A stretch of DNA of 64,000 bases from Chrysoperla carnea (lineage: Eukaryota; Arthropoda; Insecta; Neuroptera; Chrysopidae): assembly GCF_905475395.1 (NCBI RefSeq), contig NC_058337.1, positions 110,912,368 through 110,976,367 on the forward strand, written 5' to 3'. Positions within the stretch are counted from its first letter, which is position 1. Each line of letters opens with the position of its first letter. Below are positions 1 through 63,086 of this stretch, in pieces. Made by a program: the position numbers and the translations under genes. The notes under the pieces are model-generated. The model was not told the DNA's origin and ran no database searches. It saw nothing but the letters and a program-made list of their open reading frames with translations.

Positions 1-480
1 TCTCATTTAAAAGAAGAAGTAGGTATATATAATGTTTACATCAAGGATAGAGGACCATGAAGAAGGTGGAAGCAGCGTATGATGGTATTATATTATAGTT
101 GGTTGTAGAGGCGGTTTATATTCAGTTGAAATTATGTTATTATAATAAGAACATGGGTGGTTTTACGTCTAGGGCTAGGCATGGTATTTGGTTGTAATTT
201 CTGAACGTTTGAAAATTCGATGTTGTCAACATGGTATCTAAGCCAGGGAATTAACATCAAGAGGAATGGGTATGGTCCATTATAGTATGGAAAATATTGT
301 CATAATTATTGATATTTGCATAATTTATGGGTTTTATAATCAATTTGTCGTAATCTGGTAATCGTAAAAATCGAAAATCACTACAATAATTATTTAGCTC
401 CTATCACATGATCTAATACGACTTGGTTAAATCTGATGACGATAAATAAGTGACGATAAAAAAGAGAGATCTGATGATGA
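1..480. other. AT-rich stretch without a gene
   Basis: No long reading frame, RNA gene or recognisable repeat was seen. Only short TGATGA(T)AAATAAGT-like direct repeats occur near 435-490. Confidence 0.5.
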
Positions 481-600
481 TAAATAAGTAAATATTGAGC
501 TGTGAAACGGAGACTTATGTCAATTTTTAAGCGTTACAAGCTCGGGACTAAACTTAATATACTATGTATGTTTTATATATACATGGTATAAAAATGTACT
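481..600 (+). repeat. dispersed repeat B, 3' end fragment
   Basis: The text around 516-594 (AAGCGTTACAAGCTCGGGAC, then a stretch ending in TATATACATGGTATAA) reappears at 3036-3092 in the same orientation with a few substitutions. This marks a dispersed family whose 3' boundary is the TATATACATGGTATAA block. The copy here is truncated at its 5' side. The superfamily is not recognised. Confidence 0.6.
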
Positions 601-2329
601 TTTTAGCAGTTATGAAATGACTGTCAAATACTGCGCCTACCCTTACACCTAGATATATATGTTAGTCATTGTGCTATGTATAGTTTTGATTATATAATAA
701 ACATTTCATATTCAGGAAATAAATGTTTCATATTACGGAATTACTCTGTTTTGTAGAAAGAGAAACGTGTTCAAATTATCAACACCATAAAGTATTTAAG
801 ATTTTTCTATTTAGAGTATTCTATAACATGGCTGTAGTGTGCTTAGAAATAGTCTTTATAGTTTATCTCTTATTGCAACCTCAATTACAATCTCGAACAA
901 GCATTCTTGTTCGCTTTTCTCGATTTTTTTAGTACCTCTTAAAAAAATTGCAAAAAATCGCGAAATTTTTCGATAAAACTCAGTATGTAAGGTAATTTTG
1001 ACCCAAAAAGTACGAAAATCGGGATTGCATGCATTTGATGGCTGGTCGAATAGTTTTTGAGATACGGACTAAAATCGATTAAAAACTTGCGATATCTCAG
1101 AAACTCTGCATTGTTTTTGACTTATAAACAAATATTTCTTCAAAGATCTGGTAATCCTCGATATCGTAATTTTGTAATGGTCTACTTTTCAAACAAAGTA
1201 AAATTATTATTGTTGTTGATTAAACAAAATTTATCTGGGTTAAACATTTTTGTTGTTTTTTTTGCCGTATACGTATATTTGAATAGGAATGTCCTGTATA
1301 ACGTATTTTTGACTCGTTTTTATCTTTCAAGTAAATTTTATGATTGAAATATTAAAATTATTTTGTCTTCCTTATTATTAAATTCATGAATTTATTCTAA
1401 TATATTTTTTTTGGGACAGGAGTTGAACAAAAATAATCAAAATCTTTAAAGAAAAGTATGTTTTTTTTATACTGCATGCTTATAATTTTAATAAAGCTGC
1501 CATTATGGTGATATCTCTTTATGTTAAGATCTTTATTTTTTTTCTGCAGGCTTTAATTTTCTCTATATTAATTGGAATAATAATAATTGGCAGCAATTTT
1601 GACGCCCTTTTAGTACATGAACCAGGTAACTTCACAAAAAGCTGATTTTAAAACTGGATTTTGGATATTTATTTTTTATTTGAAACAAGGTAGGACTAGC
1701 CATGTTACACTGATCATGGTACGCTAAACAGAACACCTTTTTGTAGAGCGACCCAAAAGGACTTTGATTCTGCAATTAAAGACCTTCCTATGATCAGAGT
1801 ACAAATAAAGAAAAGCTCAAATTGAAATAAAATAAGTTAATTTAACAATATTCGTTCAACAGTAATTCTCGTAACAAAAAGCATACAAAGTTTAATCCAC
1901 AATCTTGTAAAAAAAGAGTTTCAAAATCATTAATTATATATTTATATAATATAATAAAACCCTTACAAAAAATTAGACAATAAATTATTTTATAAGACCA
2001 TTAAAATAATTATATAAAACAAATAAAATATTTAATAATGTCATCTTCCGTACCTAGTAAATATACAGGGTGAGGTGTAAGTGAATATACAGTTATAAAA
2101 AGTAATAACAGTTATTGATTATTATAGTAATTAGTACAACAAATCGACCGATCTCTAAAGCATCTGGATTTTCATGATAATTGGATTCATAAATCATGGT
2201 TGAGATTTAGAAATAACTAGCTTCTGTACGCAACTATTCCGACATGGATTTTAACATTAGGTCTAGAAAGATAGGAAACATGTATGTGTAACAAAAAAAA
2301 CTAAAGTTTCATCTGTTCTCCAAATTTCA
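601..2329. other. intergenic, repeat-like AT-rich DNA
   Basis: No gene is supported. The short open frames near 723-932 and 1057-1347 are AT-rich and resemble no family. The stretch 930-1130 (runs of TCGCGAAATTTTTCG and ATCGATTAAAAAC) reads like old repeat DNA, but no second copy was found in this window. Confidence 0.5.
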
Positions 2330-2518
2330 AGTAGGTGCGCATTTTAGTTCCTTTCTTGATAATTTCACAAGAACCTAACGTTTTCTGCGATAAAATATAT
2401 GTTAATCCAGCTAATAAACTCTCTGTGTGTCAAATTTCATTGAAATTCGTTTAGCCGTTTTTGTGTTATTGAGTAAAAAACATCTAAACTTTTACATTTA
2501 TAATATTTGTAGGATTTA
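2330..2518 (+). repeat. RTE/SINE-like 3' tail
   Basis: The end reads CTCTGTGTGTCAAATTTCATT, GTTTAGCCGTTTTTGTGTTA, AAACATCTAAACTTTTACAT, then TTATAATATTTGTAGGAT. This is the common arthropod 3' tail shared by RTE-type non-LTR elements and SINEs that use their machinery. A second, shorter version lies at 44885-44985. No coding part is attached, so it is a 5'-truncated insertion. Confidence 0.5.
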
Positions 2519-2794
2519 CTTTTGAGACAGACAAATAATATATATTTTTTTGTAGTTGTATTAAAACGAAAATATTCATTAAAAACAAGTGAAAACAAAC
2601 AATTGACTGAGTTAACTGTTGAAATACCATGTATAGACAGTTTTGATTACTCTGCCACATTACATGTCCCACATATTTTACTGATATTCCCATATAATAC
2701 ATACTATGCAATTTGTAATACATACTATGAAAAGTTGTTTATTTTTTAATAAGGAACATTTTTTTTCATTTAAACTTTTGTTCTATCTCCAACG

Positions 2795-3095
2795 ATTTAC
2801 AAAATGGGTCCTACGGACCCAAGATCCAATTGACTTATGTTGCTCATTTTCGAACTCGACCTCACCTTTTACGTCCTTACCTCCTTTGATATCTCTTTTC
2901 GTTTTTGAGTTATCGAGATGACAAACGGACAGACTACAGACAGGCGGCAGACAGGAAGACAACCGAAAATGGACTAATTAGGTGATTTATGAACACCTAT
3001 ACCAAAATCTTGTTCATAGAATCAATATTTATAAGCATTACAAACTTGAGACTAAACTTAGTATACCTGGTATATTTCATATACATGGTATAATA
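2795..3095 (+). repeat. dispersed repeat B, longer copy
   Basis: This longer copy of family B contains ACAAACGGACAGACTACAGA followed by CAACCGAAAATGGACTAATT, and ends with the TATACATGGTATAA block shared with 516-594. The overlapping short frames on both strands are shadows of the repeat and not genes. Confidence 0.6.
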
Positions 3096-3531
3096 ATTAT
3101 CCTCAAAAGAAAATTGAACATTCGCAGCTTCATAGAAGTCCATATTTAGATACCTTTCAAATTTTTTGTACCAAGGAATGTTATTAATCAACGACTTATC
3201 ATAAAGAAACTAATACTTTGTATAACTATATATCCACTTCCACCCCACTCTGTACTATACATATTGGTATAGTAAAACTAACATTACACCTATAAATGTA
3301 TTTTAATATAATCATTAAAACAGATTTTTTGCCATTATCATAAATAAACTAAAGGATTGTGTTTATGTTTTTTATTATACAGGTAAGTATCTAAAATATA
3401 TTACATACGATACTACTATTTTAAAGGTATATGTTTCTATATACAGGGTGTCCTATTTAACTTACGGCTGAACTGTCACTCGAATAAAAATATAACAAGA
3501 AGATTTCAACCAAAATTTTAGAGCACAAATA

Positions 3532-3982
3532 GTCCAGTCATTATAGTAGGTTCACCTCGGAATTCGAGATACCCAGCTGTAAGTCTGTAAATAGTTGTAT
3601 ATAAACCCCCTTAAAGTTGTCTCAAAACCTACATATGGTAGGGTGTAAGCAACTATTAAATTTCAAGGTCAAAGGTCACAAAAATCGGTTTTTTGCGCTT
3701 TTTTTGGAAATATCTCATTTCCTATGGGTTTTTTGCTATTTGTATTTATTATCAATATTGTAGAATACAAAATTCTCTACAAATTTTGTTTAAAAAAATT
3801 TTTTATACGGTGAACCGTTTTCGAGATAGAGGGCGGAGAGCGCGCGGTCACCGCATCACTTCAGGCCAACCGGTGCCTCCGGTCGAAAACGCGCCATATA
3901 TAGTTGATGAACTATCAACAAATCAATGATTATAAATATTTGTCAATTTTTATTAACTATTATCTTATATTTTATCATTTTC
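3532..3982 (+). repeat. left terminal inverted repeat of the 3.5-6.5 kb element
   Basis: The reverse complement lies at 6012-6471. The arm includes a GC-rich block (3830-3895, with GAGAGCGCGCGGTCACCGCA) that stands out in an AT-rich window, and ends inside at TATTAACTATTAT..TTATCATTTT. A short open frame at 3693-3929 is entirely TIR sequence and is not regarded as a gene. Confidence 0.85.
3666..3678 (+). promoter_or_regulatory. DR1-type nuclear-receptor half-site pair in left TIR
   Basis: AGGTCAAAGGTCA is a perfect direct repeat of AGGTCA with one-base spacing, the consensus recognised by HNF4 and RXR/USP-type nuclear receptors. It is conserved in the opposite arm at 6316-6328. Any regulatory role is inference. 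Confidence 0.3.
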
Positions 3983-4252
3983 TTCATGCATTAAATCTAT
4001 ATCTATTCAATAATACTGATAACCGTTTACTAAAATTAAAAAATAATTAAGAGAAAAACTTAAATCATAATATAATTATATTCCCATTTACACTAATGAC
4101 ATTTTAAATAGAAAATAATTTAGTGCCTCTTTAAAATCTTTAAATTTTAAAATTCTTCCACTACGTCGAAAATTATACCTGGGAATTATACGGGCCCCTA
4201 TTATACACTACGGACCTTTCTATTTATAGCCAGTCGGGACAGATGTGGACAG

Positions 4253-5754
4253 ATGAAAGTTGCAGTGGATCCATTATTACTCTTCCAAAGAATTACTGTC
4301 AGCAAACAATTTGAAAGCAATCTCGAAGAATATCTTCAATATGAATTGAGTCCGTATCCAACAGCTCTATTTGATAATGATGGCATGATCAGAAAAACAA
4401 CAAAATCGTCATTGTATGACAACATGAGCCCAATTGATTTTGTTCTCAATGAAAATAATGTGACGTTCATTATTGATGGCGGATTTCTTCTTCATCATGT
4501 TGTATGGAGCAGAGAAGATACTTTTTCTATTATTTTTGATAAATACATGAATTATTAAAAAAAGGCATTACAGTTCCAAAATAATTGTTGTATTTGACGG
4601 ATATTCAGACTACTGTAAGAACGTAAAAGCTATGGAGCAGCAGAGAAGAACTGCTGCACTTTCAAAAACGTACGAAGTCTGTTTCGATGAAACAATGGTT
4701 GTACCAGTTACTGATCAAGAAAAATTCTTATCAAATCGAAATAACAAAGATAAGTTCATTAATATGTTAATTGAAAAATTACAAGCTGCAAATATTACTA
4801 CTAAACAAGCCAGAGATGATGCGGATGTTCTTATTGTTGAAACTGCAATTGAAGAATCAAAGTCTAAAAAAACTGCAGTTATAATAGGACAAGATATTGA
4901 TTTACTTGTCATTTTAATTGGGCGTACACTGTCTTACGAACAAGAAATTTTCTTTAAAAAAGTTGGGAAAGGAAATGTAAAAACGGAGATATACTCTACT
5001 AAAAGTTTTGATAATTATCCTCATTCCAAAAAACATATTTTATTTCTGCACGCATTAAGTGGCTGTGACACAACTTCTGCGCTTTTTAAAAAGGGAAAAA
5101 ATCATTTTTAAAAGTTTTTGAGAAACTGACAAATTTGGAAGAACTAGCTGCAGCATTTGAGGAAGAAAATTGTTCGGCCCAGAGATTATTAGAGAGTGGA
5201 ACTCAAACCTTATTGGCAGTCTATAATGCTCCGAAATCTGTGAAAAGTCTCGATCATCTTCGTTGTACGCATTACGTCAAGTCTACAAAACTTAATAAAT
5301 CTGTGCAGATTTCAAATTTCCACCAACAAGTGCAGCTGCTCATCAACATTTCAACCGTGTATATTATCAAGTTCAAACTTGGTTAGGACATGCTTTGGAA
5401 CCCCAGGTATGGGGTTGGGCAATGCGAAATGATTTTCTGGAGCCTATCATTACAATTTTACCACCTGCTCCAGAAGATTTGCTAAATACAATTTTCTGCA
5501 ACTGCAAAAGTGGTTGTGGTTCGCGATGCGGATGCAGGAAAGCGGGCTTGCAATGCTCTTTAGCTTGTGGCCAATGTAATGGGCAAGCTTGTCTCAATGC
5601 TCTACCATATCAGAGCGACATTAACGAAGATGAAACCTTTGATCCCGAAATCATGGAAGAACTTGAGACAAATGTCGTTGAGGACGATAATGAAGACCAG
5701 TTTGAAATTTACCAGCAGCCAGAAGACGACGATGAAGAGGAAGAAGATGTTTAA
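4253..5754 (+). pseudogene. broken FEN1/XPG (PIN-like) nuclease with CRC-type cysteine motif, element-encoded
   Basis: Four open pieces read as one protein interrupted by three frameshifts, near 4556, 5109 and 5320. Piece 1 (4253-4558) has IIDGGFLLH. The next frame, from about 4557, has IIVVFDG (4581-4601), and the piece starting at 4632 has DDADVLIVETA and VIIGQDIDLLVILIG, then LHALSGCDTTSA. This order follows XPG/FEN1 nucleases: N-terminal catalytic Asp, FDG strand, XPG-I acidic pair, D-x-D loop, and a helix-turn-helix-like G-D-T segment. Piece 4 (in frame from about 5320) has nine Cys at 5497-5592 spaced C-x-C-x3-C-x3-C-x-C-x6-C-x3-C-x2-C-x4-C-x-N, close to half of a CRC (tesmin/TSO1) domain, then an acidic tail rich in D and E. 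A missing N-terminus is suspected, because no clear start context lies before 4253. It sits wholly inside the inverted-repeat element and is probably not functional in this copy. The family assignment rests on motif order read by eye. Confidence 0.65.
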
Positions 5755-6011
5755 AATTATAAATTGTAGTTTTTGTACCCTTTATTCCATTTTTTTACTT
5801 TCAATAAAAAAAAATTTATTCATTGATATTTTTTAATAAAAAGATTAATTCATAATTTATTTGTTTTTTTTTTTCATCATGTAAGAAGTTATTAATATTA
5901 ATTAGGTTAAAATTCAAATATAATTCTTATATTTTCATTAACAATTCTGCAATTGGCAGGTAAGTGTTGTTAAACAAATTAATACTGAATAAAAAGTGGA
6001 TAAGTTAGGAA

Positions 6012-6471
6012 AAAAATGATAAAATATAATATAATAGTTAATAAAAATTGACAAATATTTATAATCATTGATTTATTGATAGTTCATCAACTATATATGG
6101 CGCGTTTTCGACCGGAGGCACCGGTTGACCTGAAGTGATGCTGTGACCGCGCGCTCTCCGCCCTTTATCTCGAAAACGGTTCACCGTATAAAAAATTTTT
6201 TTAAACAAAATTTGTAGAGAATTTTGTATTCTACAATATTGATAATAAATACAAATAGCAGAAAACCCATAGGAAATGAGATATTTTCAAAAAAAGCGCA
6301 AAAAACCGATTTTTGTGACCTTTGACCTTGAAATTTAATAGTTGCTTACACCCTACCATATGTAGGTTTTGAGACAACTTTAAGGGGGTTTATATACAAC
6401 TATTTACAGACTTACAGCTGGGTATCTCGAATTCCGAGATTCTTACCTAATTTAAGCTTAAATGACTGGAC
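6012..6471 (-). repeat. right terminal inverted repeat of the 3.5-6.5 kb element
   Basis: This is the inverted partner of 3532-3982. It shows scattered single-base differences, for example in the GC-rich block and in the CAATAAATC versus CAACAAATC stretch. The outermost shared block is AATGACTGGAC at 6461-6471. Confidence 0.85.
6316..6328 (-). promoter_or_regulatory. DR1-type half-site pair in right TIR
   Basis: TGACCTTTGACCT on the plus strand is the exact reverse complement of the motif in the left arm. Its function is unproven. Confidence 0.3.
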
Positions 6472-8424
6472 CAAAAAGATTGTTATGAGTCAAGGCTATG
6501 AGCTTGACTTCAAATAACGAGATATTTTAATAGTCAACCTTCGCTTATAACTGGTAAGTAATAGAGGGATTGTTTTCAAGGTAGCGTTGTGCATCTTAAA
6601 AAGCCGTTACAAGTTTTGTCTTCATTGCAATTTTTAGATAAACGAATACACTCAGCAGAAATTGGAAACTTAATGATTTCATATTCAACAGTCAACTGTC
6701 CTTTGTATCTAGTGAAAAACCTTTCACATTTAAATAGATACAAAGTAGCGAAAAAAAGACACAAGCCGAGAATGTAACCCGATCTACTTATTATTCGGTT
6801 TTGTGACTATAAGCACTCGGCTTTTTAACTTTTTTTCTTACTGAAATTTTTATTTTGTAATAGAAATTCGTATGGTGCCTTACTTTATATTCCTTCTGAA
6901 AAAAGTTACTAGGAAAAAAGCTGTAAGGTTTTGCTCGTAATAGTGGCCTTTGAATTTGACCTTAACCTTGACCATGAAGGTCATTTCAAGTTTAAGATGA
7001 TCCAAAGTCACCATTATTTTTCACGAGCGAAATTCTATAACTTTTGTCATAGTCCTTATTTTCTTAATAGCCGCGAGGGTCTCGAACTTTTTGAACAGCC
7101 TGTATACGTTTGTTTATTTAATTCATTGCTCACATGTAAACTTCCTATTTGTGATACGTATGTTCTATCTGGTGATTTATACAGTGTGTCTCATTTTGAG
7201 TGCAACCACCTTCATATTTTGGTAAAGGGAAGATGATAAAATCAAATTACATCGCAAAAATCACGACAATATATAACAGAGTGTTTCTTTAACTTTTTCT
7301 TAATTTTAGCAAATTATCGAAATATCAATAATCTTATAGAAGCTTAATATTTCAATAATTCACTGCGAGTCCCTTGTTTATTGCTTAAAAATCGTTGAGT
7401 CATATCATATCAAACAATTTAAGGGAAGTTTTCAAAACTTACAAGAAACCATAAAACATTCCAGGTGATTTTAATACTTCAAGAAATAGAAAAACGAAAC
7501 ACCGATATTTAATAACGAAAACATTTCTTTTCTTAATTTTGAGTTTGACTGTTAATATTTATGACTTGATTTTCATGGATTTAGGAAAAATAAACCGGAA
7601 ATAAATAAACACGGAGGAAAAGATGGAAAAAATTTCTGTAATAGTGCTAAAAAAAGCTAAAAACTTCAGAAACTAACCATATCCTATAAAGTCGACAAAC
7701 TCAACCCAACCAACTCGTAAAGACAACGGAGTATTGTGTGGGCCTATACATTTCTAACGTCAAACATTTGACTTTCTTTCACTATTAATCATTCTAAAAA
7801 CCAAGCCAAGCTAGAAATTTAAATGTTTTGCTCATACTATTGCTTTTACGTGAGAATTATCACAATTAATAAGCCTAGAAAAAGACAACTCCATTTTCTA
7901 CTTGACGGCAAATAAACTATGTGACTGTTGTATTTTTATTTTGGTAAAAACAATTGATCTTCCAAAAAGTGATTTAGAATTGTCTACATTCAAACATAGG
8001 TACATACATAAATATTTCATAAAATATTTCCTTGTTTCGAAAAAATATATCATTTATTTTCATGTTCCTAAATAATAAATAGAATATTTTTGTTTGTTAT
8101 TCATAAAAACAATAATAAATTTATTATACTGAATGAAAACCTCCCAATCCGCATAAATATTTCTAAAAATAATAAAAGACAGAAAATATTATATAGAACA
8201 CAAACAAGCAACATATCTTCTACAAGATATATGCAACCAGCAATGTATATGTGTAATTTAGAATGAGTGGGTGGGAAAAAACCAAGAGGAATCTTTAGTT
8301 CTCTATTTAATATTCATTTTACCATTTATTTGATATTTTACCACAGCAGTTACTGTTACAAAATTAATGAAGATTGCTGTAAATATATACTACTACTAAC
8401 TTCGTGGCAGTGGCGTACGAAAGT

Positions 8425-8425
<1 letters not shown>
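6472..8425. other. intergenic, probable old repeats
   Basis: No supported gene. Within 6935-6985 there are several TGACCTT/AAGGTCA half-sites (GACCTTAACCTTGACCATGA). At 7085-7107 the text CTTTTTGAACAGCCTGTATA resembles a transposon end. Two overlapping 62-residue frames at 6576-6777 (opposite strands) show no family resemblance. An 8 bp inverted pair AAGCCGAG/CTCGGCTT lies at about 6763-6825. Confidence 0.4.

Positions 8426-8457
<32 letters not shown>
8426..8457 (-). repeat. 32-nt poly-T, likely poly-A tail of a minus-strand retroelement
   Basis: An uninterrupted run of 32 T follows GTGGCAGTGGCGTACGAAAG. On the minus strand this reads TTTCGTACGCCACTGCC next to poly-A. This is consistent with the tail of a retroposed element inserted on the minus strand; the rest of the element is too decayed to define. 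Confidence 0.45.
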
Positions 8458-8461
<4 letters not shown>

Positions 8462-10814
8462 AAGTTGTAGCGTTCATCCTAAAATTAACAAAAAATAAAG
8501 AAGACTAAAAAATACAGGGTTGGGCAGAGAAGTTTATAATTTTGATAACTTCTTAAATAACATAAAACAGTATTCAAAAAAAATTAACTAAATGTAACTG
8601 GACTCGAAAATAACTCCAGTATAGTGGCGTTTTAAAAGGCTTAAACATTCTTCCAAGCAACAAACTTATATCCCGTAAAGCATTAAGTTTATGGTAGTTT
8701 TAGCTGTTCTAAAACTTATTCGTGAGTTAGTTTTACATATAAAAGACTTTTTTTCAAAATTGCCGAGGAAGCAATTGTCTTGAAAACTATTGCTTCTACG
8801 AAAAATTTTTGAATTTTTTTTTTTAAATTAACTGCCAAATAAATTTTATAATAGATAAAACTGCCATATTTGGCCTTGAATATTCTTTTTTTGCGCACAT
8901 TATTTTGTAATGGACTTTTCATAGATTCAAATAAAGATAATTCCGGTGAAAAAACTTCACTTGGATTTTTTAAGCAAATCGACTCAAGATCGTTTCTTTG
9001 TCTTATTTCTCTATTTTATACGGGTGAAAATACCATACGTATACCTACGCTACTGATCTTAATTCACCTATAAAGATACACAGAGGCTGTAGATTCAATG
9101 TTTTTGAAAGTATTTGTGTAAACTCTAATGAAAAGGGGTTAAACATGAAGATAGTAGCCATTTTATATGAAAATTGTATGTATTGGGTAGTACTTTCTCT
9201 CTGTACACCATAAGTTAAAATTATGTATAGAATAAAGTCAGTGTGTGGTGTAGTAATGTAGCTGAATCACGTGCTACTAATGAATAATCTAAAGAAAACT
9301 TCTTATATCTTTCTGTCCGTTCACGTTTTGCTTCTCTGAAACTCTCAATATGCACTGTGTAAGTAATTCCACAAAAATTCGAACAGTATATTTTTGTATA
9401 ATAAATTTATCATTAATTTATTACATCGAGATTTATGCGATAACTAAGTCTATGTGATACATTTCTTCTTTCCTTTTCTATTTCTTGCTTCTCAAACTGT
9501 AAAAATATTCCATCTACAACTTTTTTTCCTTATGAAACCAAATTATTACATTTTACAAGCTCTTGTAATTGGTCTGAAAGTTCAAATTGAAACTTTTAAT
9601 ATATCTTTTGGATTGAAGTCCGCGCATAAGCAATTCTATTTGTGTACGAGTGTTTTATCGCTTACAATATCTCCTGAATGAAAGGTAATAGCATTGTCGG
9701 ACTTGCGCCTATCATAATAACATCAAGATTTACTAAAAGAATTGTCAAAAGCAGCACGTAGAAATTTGTGCCTGAAATTTTTTTGAGAATATTCAGCAAT
9801 TGGAAATTTTTATTTTGATAATTAGTTAAATTGCAGAAAATGATTCAAACAATAATTTGTCCTCTGATCATTTTTTCTGTAAAACTAATATTTACAGAAA
9901 TATTTACGATAATTGATTTTATAAATTGATATGAATTTGAATGGTTCAAAATATTCCTTCTTGTGTAATATAATCAAATTTGGTGTAATTCAATCAATTT
10001 TTCGCGAAGAAAGCTTTTTTTGTTCAACCGACTGTATTTATCAAAGCTACTTACGTTTTCTATTTCATTATTTTAATACAAATCTGGGATCAATTTGATG
10101 TTGAGACTTTCTATTCAACTCAGTTTCAAATTAATTTACAAAATCAATGATTTCGTCAAATATTGGTTACAAAGGTTACCAGGTTACACACCTGGTTACA
10201 AAGGTTATATAAAATGAAAAGGATTTCTGTTCTGATTAAAAATATAAAGTGTCGAATACAAAACCATATCATATGATATAATATCGTATATGTACAGTGT
10301 TGTAAAATACGAGAATTTCTAAATTATAAACTAGTGAAAATTGAAGTATACTTAAAAATTCTCAGGCGTAAAACAGTAGCGAATTTTGATCTAGAATGTC
10401 CTTAATAGCAAGCTCATAAAAATATGCTCATGTATAATTATTTTTCACATCAGTTGTATTATTGTACTTAATACTTATATATCGTATGTATACATAGGTA
10501 CAATTTTTCACATATAGCTGCACATTTGTTATTTTTGTGTTTATCTTTTCGATAAAACAGATGAGTATCGATTTCGGGGTATCATAAGCTTGTCATAAAT
10601 TAAAGTATTAATAAGATTCTTTGAAAAAAATCAGTAAAACAGTTTTTAAGGTATGATTTAAAGTGTGATAGCTATAGTCCACTGGTGCAATCAACCTATA
10701 ACGTCTAGATTTAGATGAAATTCTTCAAATATATCTGAAAACCAGGGTTTTTGATGCTATCAAACTGGATCTATTCGCTTAACGCCGCAGGTCTCATTTG
10801 GCAGGCATCATACA
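8458..10814. other. intergenic AT-rich DNA
   Basis: No gene seen. Open frames up to 75 codons (for example 9454-9681) are hydrophobic AT-rich translations without family features. At 10164-10206 GGTTACAAAGGTTA occurs twice around CACCTGG, a small local repeat. Confidence 0.5.
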
Positions 10815-16450: not shown

Positions 16451-17108
16451 ACAAGTGAAATTTACAAAATTTAAAAACCCCCGACAAATGTGATTTATTC
16501 CTTGTAAACCGATTTAAAAAAACTTAACTATAAAATGTTCTCAATCAAGTCGGTTCGACCATTGAGGAGCTACCGATGCCACTGAGAAACACACAGACGC
16601 ACAAATAAACACTTAAAACACTCCTTCTTAAATCAATATTAAAGTGATGGTCAAGGAGAACAGATGAGATGAAAAGGATACTCAGAGAGCTATCATTTTT
16701 TGGGACAAATTTTTGGAAATATTTTAATTGAAAGTGTAAAGAAAATATTTGAGTTGGCTTTGTTCTTTTGAATTATTGTTTTGAATTACCTAATTATTTT
16801 ACCATTGCTCTTTTCGAAATGAATAGAGCCAGGTTTATTTGACCATTCATTTCCAGAGAAATTATTTATATGTTAAAAGTATGTCATGCCTTTTCCAAAC
16901 TGAATCAATTTCGAAGATCGTCACCAATTTTTTCGGGTACTGAACCCTAAGTTCGCAATTGAAACATAGCTAATAACATTCTTCTTAAAATTACCTCTCA
17001 AATGAAACCTGAAAATATAATCCGCTTAGACGCTACGATGCCACAGACAGACACACGCACATAGCGGTCAAACTTATAACATCCCTTTTTATAGTTCGGG
17101 GGTTAAAA
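16451..17108 (-). repeat. dispersed repeat A, near full-length copy
   Basis: The left boundary is ACAAGTGAAATTTACAAAAT followed by TTAAAAACCCCCGAC. The right boundary is AGTTCGGGGGTTAAAAAT. The two ends share an inverted AACCCCCGA core. Inside, on the minus strand, there are two related modules: a first with GTTATAAG..GACCGCTATGTGCG and GGCATCGTAGCG, and a second with GTGGCATCGGTAGCTCCTC, TCGAACCGACTTGATTGAG and TATAGTTAAG. The same layout occurs at 24381-25093 in the opposite orientation. Confidence 0.7.
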
Positions 17109-24380: not shown

Positions 24381-25093
24381 CTTCATTTTTAACCCCCGAA
24401 CTAAAAAAAGGAGTGTTATAATTAACCGCCGAACAAAAAAAAAAAAAAAAAACGGGTGTTTGAAAAGTTTGACCGCTATGTGTGTGTGTCTATATATCCT
24501 TGTCTGTGGCATCGTATGCCTGAACGGATGAACCGATTTTAATTTTTTTGGTTTCATTTGGAAGGTAATTTAACGGAGAGTGTTCTTAGCTTCAAGTGTG
24601 AGCTCAGGATTCCGTACCCGAAAAAACTAAAAAATTGTGCGATGATTTTCTAAATTGAATCGATTCAGTTTGGAAAAGACATGACATAAAATTTTACCAT
24701 ATAAATAATTACTATGGAAATGAATGGTCAAATAATCCTGGCTCAATTCATATCGAAAAGTGAAATGGTAAAATAATTAGGTACTTCAAAACAATAATTC
24801 AAAAGAATATTCAATTAAAATATTTCCAAATTGGTCCCAAAAAATGATAGCTCTCTAGAATATCCTTTTCATCTCATCTGATTCCCTTGACGTTGACCAT
24901 CACTTTAATATTGATTAAAGAATGATCGTTATAAGTTTATAGTGTTTATCTGTGCTTCTCAGTGGCATCGTAGCCCCTCAACGGTCGAACCGACTTGATT
25001 GAGCACATTTTATAGTTAAGTTTCCAAAAATCGGCTTACAAGGAATAAATCGCATTTGTCGGGTTTTTTTTTTAATTGCGTAAATTTAACTTG
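24381..25093 (+). repeat. dispersed repeat A, full-length copy
   Basis: It starts with CTTCATTTTTAACCCCCGAA and ends with TGTCGGGTTTTTTTTTTAAT then TAAATTTAACTTG. A short duplicated false start (24391-24440) with poly-A precedes the first module, which has TTTGACCGCTATGTGTGTG and GGCATCGTATGCCTGAACGG. The middle carries CATCTCATCTGATTC and TTGACCATCACTTTAATATT. The second module has GTTATAAGTTTATAGTG and TGGCATCGTAGCCCCTCAAC. The overlapping frames at 24210-24557 are shadows. Confidence 0.7.
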
Positions 25094-27681: not shown

Positions 27682-27781
27682 AAATTCAATTTTCGTCATT
27701 GTAAGTCCTTGCTAAGAGTGACTCCAGAAACAAATTCAATTTTCGTCATTGTAAGTCCTTGCTAAGAGTGACTCCAGAAAC
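27682..27781 (+). repeat. perfect 50 bp tandem duplication
   Basis: Unit 27682-27731 is repeated without change at 27732-27781. It contains TTTCGTCATTGTAAGTCCTT and ends CTCCAGAAAC. Zero divergence indicates a very recent duplication or an assembly artefact. Confidence 0.95.
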
Positions 27782-28954
27782 AGACGTGTTATAATCACGT
27801 TTTTAGTCTGCATATTTTCGGGTATTATATAACACTAGTTAAACGTTATGTAAGGTCATTTATCATAAAGCAACAACTGAAAGTGAGAAAACGATAAGTT
27901 AGCAATGTATAGAGGGTCTTGGTTTCAGGTTTTTTGATGATTTATTATGATTTATGAAACAAAAGTAAATTTCTTAAATGTACTTCATTTCTTGTAAAAC
28001 AGGAAACCGCTTAGCAAAAATTTTTAGCTCGACATTTATTTTTCCGATCTTACTAACGTCTCATCGTTTAGTCTCATCGATTTGATAGTTCAAGGGCAGT
28101 GAAATTTATTCTTTTTGCGATAAATTCATTGAACTAATTTAACTATTCATATCACCTGGATTTAGGATTGTTAAAAGATTGGTATTACAGAGGTTTTACT
28201 TGGCTGCCAAAACCAGGACAATGTATCCACTGGGGTTTTTTTTGTTACATTCGACTTAGGGATGTTACAACTGAGTAACATTAAGAACTGCTAAATGAAG
28301 TGAATATGAAAAAAAATTGTCTTTTGGAGGAAATGAATCTAGAATGTAACTTGTTGAGGGTTAAATTATTCCTAATTTTGCCTATGAATATGTCCCTAGA
28401 AAGAACAGAAGAAATAGAAGTTTATCTTCAACTTCATCAAATAAATCATAGCCACCCCTCTAAAACAAAGACTTTTATTAAGTTCATGGTCATAGATGCA
28501 CTTATTGATCTCCAGAGATTTCTCCACATAATTCTTAATTAAGAATCATTGCATTATTAAGAAAGATAAAATTAATTTGTTTATAAAATATATAATTTTA
28601 TATAAGACAGGCATATATGAAGTGAAGTTAGTTATTATACACTGTAATATAGGACGTTATGTAATAACGATTGCATTATTTTACTCTTGGGAAATAAGAA
28701 TAAAATGAAAATGAAATGATTGAACATTTTTATCAATTCTTATCGAACGCATTGTACATACAAGGTTGGTTCGTTTACCAATACATTGCTTGATTTCTCT
28801 CGTTAAAGTTCACTTGACCTCACTAGAATAAAACGCAATCTATGACGTTGTATCATTTATGTTGGACAGTTTTGAGTAAATAAATTTAGTATAATTTTTT
28901 CTTTGGGTAGCCATTTTCCAGCAATTTTTTTAATAAAAACGTTTTTACTTCCTT
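27782..28954. other. intergenic AT-rich DNA
   Basis: No supported gene. The 80-codon frame at 28300-28542 has no recognisable domain. Confidence 0.45.
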
Positions 28955-61127: not shown

Positions 61128-61287
61128 TGTAGTCAAGTAAGGTTTTCGCAACATGCCCACTTTATACTTAATTTTAGCAATCCACGATGTTTTTATGCTT
61201 AAAACTCTGTAGCCAAGTAAGGTTTTCGCAACATGCCCACTTTATACTTAATTTTAGCAATCCACGATGTTTTTACGCTTAAAATTC
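61128..61287 (+). repeat. 80 bp tandem duplication upstream of FABP gene 4
   Basis: Copies 61128-61207 and 61208-61287 (unit containing GGTTTTCGCAACATGCCCAC and ATCCACGATGTTTTTA) differ by only about three bases. The 61-codon minus frame at 61199-61384 runs through the second copy and is not considered a gene. Confidence 0.95.
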
Positions 61288-61465
61288 TGCCCGATAGAAA
61301 TAAAATGCAATTTTGTTGGCATGCTCGACGCGACATTAGAAAGCCTTTTCTTGCAATATTAGATGCATGTAAACGAAGTGTCATAAAAAAATTGTAAATT
61401 AATTTTGTTAAATTATATTACTGCAATTATGCAATTAAATGCATGTACTGCAATTAAAAATTTAA

Positions 61466-62689: not shown

Positions 62690-63086
62690 TAAATCAAATA
62701 AACCTGACTCAATTCACTTCGAAAAGTGAAAAGGTAAAATAATTAGGTAATGCAAAACAATAATTCAAAGAACAAAGTCAACTCAAATATTTTAATTTAA
62801 ATTAAAATATTTTTAAAAATTTGTCCCAAAAAATGATAGCTCTCTGAGTATCCTTTTCATTTCATCTGATGTCCTTGACCATCACTTTGGTATTAATTTT
62901 TGAAGGAGTGTTATAAGTTTAAAGTGGTTATCTGGGCGTCTGTGTATTTTTCAGTGGAATCGTAGCGCTTTTACGATCGAACCGACTTGATTGAGAACCT
63001 TTTATAGTTAAGTTTCTTAAAATCGGTTTACAAGGAATAAATCGCGTTTGTCGATTTTTTTTTAAATTTTGTAAATTTCACTTGTT
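62690..63086 (+). repeat. dispersed repeat A, 3' half copy
   Basis: It holds only the middle (AAAAAATGATAGCTCTCTGA, CCTTTTCATTTCATCTGATG) and the second module (GTTATAAGTTTAAAGTGGTT, GATCGAACCGACTTGATTGA), then the common terminus GTAAATTTCACTTGT. It starts abruptly, so it is 5' truncated. Confidence 0.65.

Follow-up and report, generated by a model that had tools for sequence, protein, structure and literature searches.

The element at positions 3530-6473 of a 64,000-nucleotide stretch of the Chrysoperla carnea genome (contig NC_058337.1, positions 110,912,368-110,976,367; the whole stretch is called the window) is very probably a dead copy of an AcademX-like cut-and-paste DNA transposon, non-autonomous and internally deleted. 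A preliminary description had noted long inverted arms around one broken open reading frame (ORF) for a FEN1/XPG-like nuclease, and had suggested transposition by neither a DDE nor an HUH enzyme or, alternatively, a host-like gene captured by a foldback element. That interpretation as a whole is partly supported: it read the structure of the nuclease well, and new transposition chemistry is not supported. We conclude that the window element is an ordinary, well-explained case, a non-autonomous element derived from a transposon of known kind, with no new mode of transposition. All loci compared (L003 to L052) lie within the 559-Mb C. carnea genome; copies bearing the terminal inverted repeats (TIRs) of the window element are called the window family or subfamily, and the full-length relatives the L039 family.

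Full-length relatives encode a transposase and a nuclease in one ORF

Searching the genome with the nuclease region and the TIR, as the preliminary description had proposed, recovered both further copies and full-length relatives. The nuclease piece at 4551-5111 (tblastn, 150 of 261 candidates scored) gave at least 150 matches at E <= 0.01, including four places at 79% identity within open frames of 1,549-1,551 codons; the remaining matches include window-family copies and fragments. L039, the full-length relative that was read whole, carries an element of 5,917 bp (349-6265 of the locus) with 543-nt arms that are 99% complementary, outer ends beyond them, and a single ORF for a 1,480-aa protein in which the window module is the C-terminal third and a DDE-type transposase stands in front. 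The order along the protein is a Cys/His-rich N-terminus (recognized by eye), the DDE-type core, a nuclease of the XPG/FEN1/EXO1 family, a Cys cluster and an acidic tail; homology of the window module is established. By three more protein searches, the other three full-length places were 100% identical to L039, or nearly so. The 3′ 3,395 bases compared in L016-L018 are identical to the element end, after which the flanks differ, and L019 differs from these by one base ahead of an indel near the element end; near-identical copies ending in different flanks give a picture of recent transposition. L050, an L039-family derivative in which amino acids 1-137 are joined to 1181-1466 at 99-100% identity, shows the same deletion process on a young element.

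The order of transposase and nuclease in one ORF recurred in several divergent lineages that were 22-61% identical to L039, some rows being partial. This result bears on the idea that a host nuclease gene was captured by a foldback element with its transposase elsewhere, for which the long TIRs and a window copy without transposase could be cited. Because the nuclease is joined to a transposase across divergent lineages, the window copy did not capture it, and we regard a host capture as very improbable. One divergent lineage (L044/L047) has an extra stretch ahead of EEAD, the equivalent of the nuclease DDAD motif, and no Cys cluster, with the order of transposase and nuclease kept.

The window copy is an internal-deletion derivative

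The arms are near-identical inverted repeats, as first described: the ungapped cores at 3556-3985 and 6009-6438 are 430 nt long and 98% complementary, and a 19-bp inner-end pattern matched twice in the window and in none of 100 shuffles. In the genome the arms gave at least 40 matches at 26 distinct places (lower bounds, since 40 of 645 candidates were scored) and are therefore not a chance structure. When 17 window-family copies were compared with the 1,480-aa protein (tblastn), they matched mostly as pieces of amino acids 966-1477. L003 kept amino acids 1-104, L015 kept 1-34 and 61-120, and L049, reached through an N-terminal protein search, kept 1-92, which places the transposase N-terminus inside window-family TIRs in 3 of 18 copies compared (not a random sample). 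In these three the leader continues into the transposase N-terminus; the window leader, 98-99% identical to theirs, runs into an 18-nt filler that supplies an ATG and then into the nuclease module. Given the full-length relatives, the retained N-termini and the same leader DNA, we conclude that the window copy arose by internal deletion. The features are as follows.

3530-6473, plus strand: complete element, a non-autonomous internal-deletion derivative of 2944 bp (17 two-ended copies compared)
3527-3529, no strand: left target-site duplication (TSD), AAA (copy comparison)
6474-6476, no strand: right TSD, AAA (copy comparison)
3530-3985, plus strand: left TIR, the 430-nt core plus the outer TAGTCCAGTCATT end
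6009-6473, minus strand: right TIR
3986-4237, plus strand: parental 5′ leader
4238-4255, plus strand: filler at the deletion junction, 18 nt, source of the ATG at 4253
4253-4558, plus strand: nuclease piece 1, with the catalytic Asp of IIDGGFLLH
4551-5111, plus strand: nuclease piece 2, with FDGY, DDAD, GQDIDLL and SGCDTTS
5090-5386, plus strand: nuclease piece 3, past a frameshift
5299-5754, plus strand: C-terminal piece, with the conserved tail, Cys cluster (5497-5592) and acidic end
5755-5978, plus strand: extra stretch of about 224 nt with TTAA on each side

Copy comparison confirmed the element first placed at 3532-6471 and moved each end outward by 2 bp. The peptide motifs quoted from its single broken ORF are all present, spread over four stop-free pieces, and relative to the intact copy L041 the ORF has one 1-nt insertion and two 1-nt deletions. 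L041 is the only one of 12 copies compared with a complete nuclease open frame; it lacks 27 nt, beside the active-site DDAD motif, that are present in the 11 other copies and in L039. The stretch at 5755-5978 is missing from seven other window-family copies compared and is either a late insert in the window copy or 3′ untranslated region lost from the others.

These copies also bear on the proposal that a structure-specific nuclease alone drives transposition, with no DDE or HUH enzyme. A nuclease is indeed the only coding remnant in the window, and most window-family copies compared keep parts of it. However, in the full-length relatives one ORF encodes both the nuclease and a DDE-type core, and the nuclease is near-neutral in the derivatives, 11 of 12 compared being broken, truncated or both. 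The preliminary description had named TIR copies that normally enclose a DDE transposase and lack this ORF as an observation against its proposal; transposase fragments, the N-terminus in the three copies described above, do lie inside these TIRs and contradict it, and no window-family copy with the transposase core was found. A nuclease-driven mechanism is thus extremely unlikely, and the false lead of a DDE-free transposon is removed.

Insertion generates a 3-bp target-site duplication

Alignment of outer ends, another check that had been proposed, revealed a 3-bp duplication in 16 of 17 two-ended copies, compared with 5.1% of mismatched end pairs. In none of the 17 did the duplication reach 4 bp, and with the ends slid by 1-3 bases it was seen in 0 of 17. 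This count left out copies with one end available, with ends beyond the pattern tolerance or at duplicate loci. An empty site was found for the L039 family: the flanks of the L019/L051 copy equal its uninterrupted sister L045 exactly across the 60 bases compared on each side, with TAG duplicated.

At this place (L019/L047/L051, C6:12904400-12914000) the full-length L039-type copy lies inside the transposase ORF of a second Academ-like lineage, 22-23% identical, just ahead of its TYDLA motif.

Proposed history and function

The full-length parent would have been about 5.9 kb long, with TIRs over 0.5 kb and one transposase-nuclease ORF. A deletion, which may have arisen by abortive gap repair, took away the start codon and the whole transposase, so that the filler now links the 5′ leader and the nuclease module. 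The window copy was then probably mobilised by a transposase acting in trans and integrated with duplication of 3 bp, and its three single-nucleotide indels would mark later decay; the order of these events is itself an inference. In the intact protein, the DDE core presumably cuts and joins DNA, and the XPG-like nuclease may trim branched or flapped DNA left by excision or insertion.

The L039 and window families have the terminal TAGNCCAGTCAT in common and their arms are 76% identical over 182 nt, so that cross-mobilisation is possible but unproven. That nuclease-only derivatives such as L041 yield a stand-alone XPG-like protein, tuning related full-length elements in trans in either direction through the common TAGNCCAGTCAT ends, strikes us as improbable. 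One genome holds full-length elements that are near-identical and have evidently moved recently, together with deletion derivatives both fresh and old and an empty site, a set with which experiments could approach what the XPG-like nuclease does in Academ transposition.

The nuclease, constrained in the parent, evolves nearly without constraint in derivatives

The predicted structure of the nuclease module shows a PIN-like fold with the acidic active site of FEN1, XPG and EXO1, bearing out the FEN1/XPG-type assignment made earlier. D1054, D1094, D1169, D1192, D1194 and D1250 are conserved in 8 of 8 rows, and position 1167 is Asp in most and Glu in two. The module resembles these Rad2-type nucleases in fold, in its acidic positions and in the K/E/R residues after FDG, which aligned to EXO1; it differs in that it is encoded by a transposon, bears a Cys cluster and acidic tail, and is 12-18% identical to them in structural alignments.

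The nine Cys residues and the acidic tail stood as described, whereas their likeness to the CRC motif of tesmin/TSO1 did not: the profile PF03638 (CXC) matched none of 15 nuclease sequences, 13 of which bear the cluster. Its three matches in the genome (5 of 5 candidates scored; C5:8395922, C5:8396150 and C4:18051267) are at no known element copy, and a PDB search with the 48-aa Cys peptide gave nothing at E <= 10.

Between the window subfamily and L039, the ratio of nonsynonymous to synonymous substitution rates (dN/dS) in the nuclease was 0.11-0.15 in 12 of 12 comparisons. Among the 12 copies themselves it was about 0.75 when pooled (pairs with at least 150 codons), with pairwise values of 0.27 to 1.67 that reflect few changes in pairs that are not independent. 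We conclude that strong constraint acted on the module in the parent and that little constraint acts on it in the derivatives; selection keeping the nuclease in the derivatives is unsupported by the pooled ratio.

Assignment to AcademX

Kapitonov and Jurka, and Kojima in 2020, are said to have described the AcademX nuclease as XPG-like; no paper pairing 'Academ' with 'XPG' was found in the literature searched. In the transposase, D424/D427 and D590 are conserved in 7 of 7 rows and E832 in 8 of 8, with no counterpart in the window copy. The DDE triad was assigned from conservation and position, and in L039 the second Asp and the Glu are 242 residues apart with a predicted helical region between them. 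DDE transposase, nuclease and 3-bp TSD together fit AcademX, for which the portions of PMC10045372 consulted give a TSD of 3 or 4 bp, as against 9 or 10 bp for AcademH, and tie the two to an encoded nuclease and helicase. Within what those portions describe, the full-length relatives are like AcademX in these features and in their size of about 5.9 kb; the window copy differs in being frameshifted and without a transposase. AcademH was rejected on its TSD, which is 3 bp here and not 9-10 bp, and on the Pfam matches of the four full-length ORFs at E <= 1, which include no helicase family. Academ elements have been annotated in insects and Daphnia, according to the consulted parts of PMC9143410, PMC9783078 and PMC8594854.

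P and hAT elements also resemble the DDE core, through a weak structural match (Hermes for hAT) and the helical stretch that separates the second Asp from the Glu. They make TSDs of 8 bp; the TSD here is 3 bp, and among PDB sequences the transposase profile had a single match at E <= 10 (E 0.39), which is not a transposase. An element of this anatomy could belong to a DDE superfamily other than Academ that acquired an XPG-like nuclease independently. In its favour, the transposase core matches the P element best in fold, if weakly, and Academ membership is not backed by alignment to an Academ reference. Nevertheless, a nuclease and a 3-bp TSD are what the available text of PMC10045372 reports for AcademX, and the size is close to the average of curated bivalve Academ elements, 5,565 bp, in the part of PMC10294476 consulted; we consider such an independent origin unlikely.

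Several further results weigh against an AcademX-like parent for the window copy. The Academ name is based on architecture, TSD length and size. The structural model of the transposase is a weak one (mean predicted local distance difference test score, pLDDT, 67), and plain Foldseek gave it no PDB match at E <= 0.001. The between-family dS of 1.3-1.7 is near saturation, and L015, which is internally rearranged, is the single copy of 17 without a TSD. No full-length member of the window TIR subfamily was found: of the 76 matches to the core at amino acids 356-624 (all 111 candidates scored), every one is over 50 kb away from the 46 known window-family places, which are not all of its copies. 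For the adjoining region, of which 43 of 117 match rows were checked against window-family places, the nearest was 49.7 kb away. Apart from the L039 family, the closest core remnant is L052 (74%), and it is just 82-84% identical to the window family at the DNA level where they overlap.

L052 (2815-6571, about C6:10752814-10756570) holds transposase amino acids 106-1006 in pieces at 56-75%, interrupted by about 1.2 kb. It has neither the window TIR nor any TIR pair, and with its DNA identity this excludes it as the full-length parent; we take it for a separate decayed, third subfamily.

Other observations

Of 8 transposase-core members, 3 matched the fungal family DUF6589, at best with E 0.0019; of the four matches of this family in the genome, none above the cut-off, two coincide in position with distant transposase hits, so that a link is suggestive only. 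Pattern matches in viral contigs (21) and prokaryote contigs (9) included no relative. At L043, a 957-aa open frame (5917-8787) adjoining another Academ-like element matched DNA_pol_B_2 (E 5.8e-32) and is possibly a Polinton/Maverick. Elsewhere in the window, a dispersed repeat occurs in three copies in both orientations (16466-16878, 24692-25071 and 62694-63069; matching stretches 79-92% alike), and there are two-copy tandem repeats at 61128-61289 (80 bp) and 27682-27782 (50 bp).
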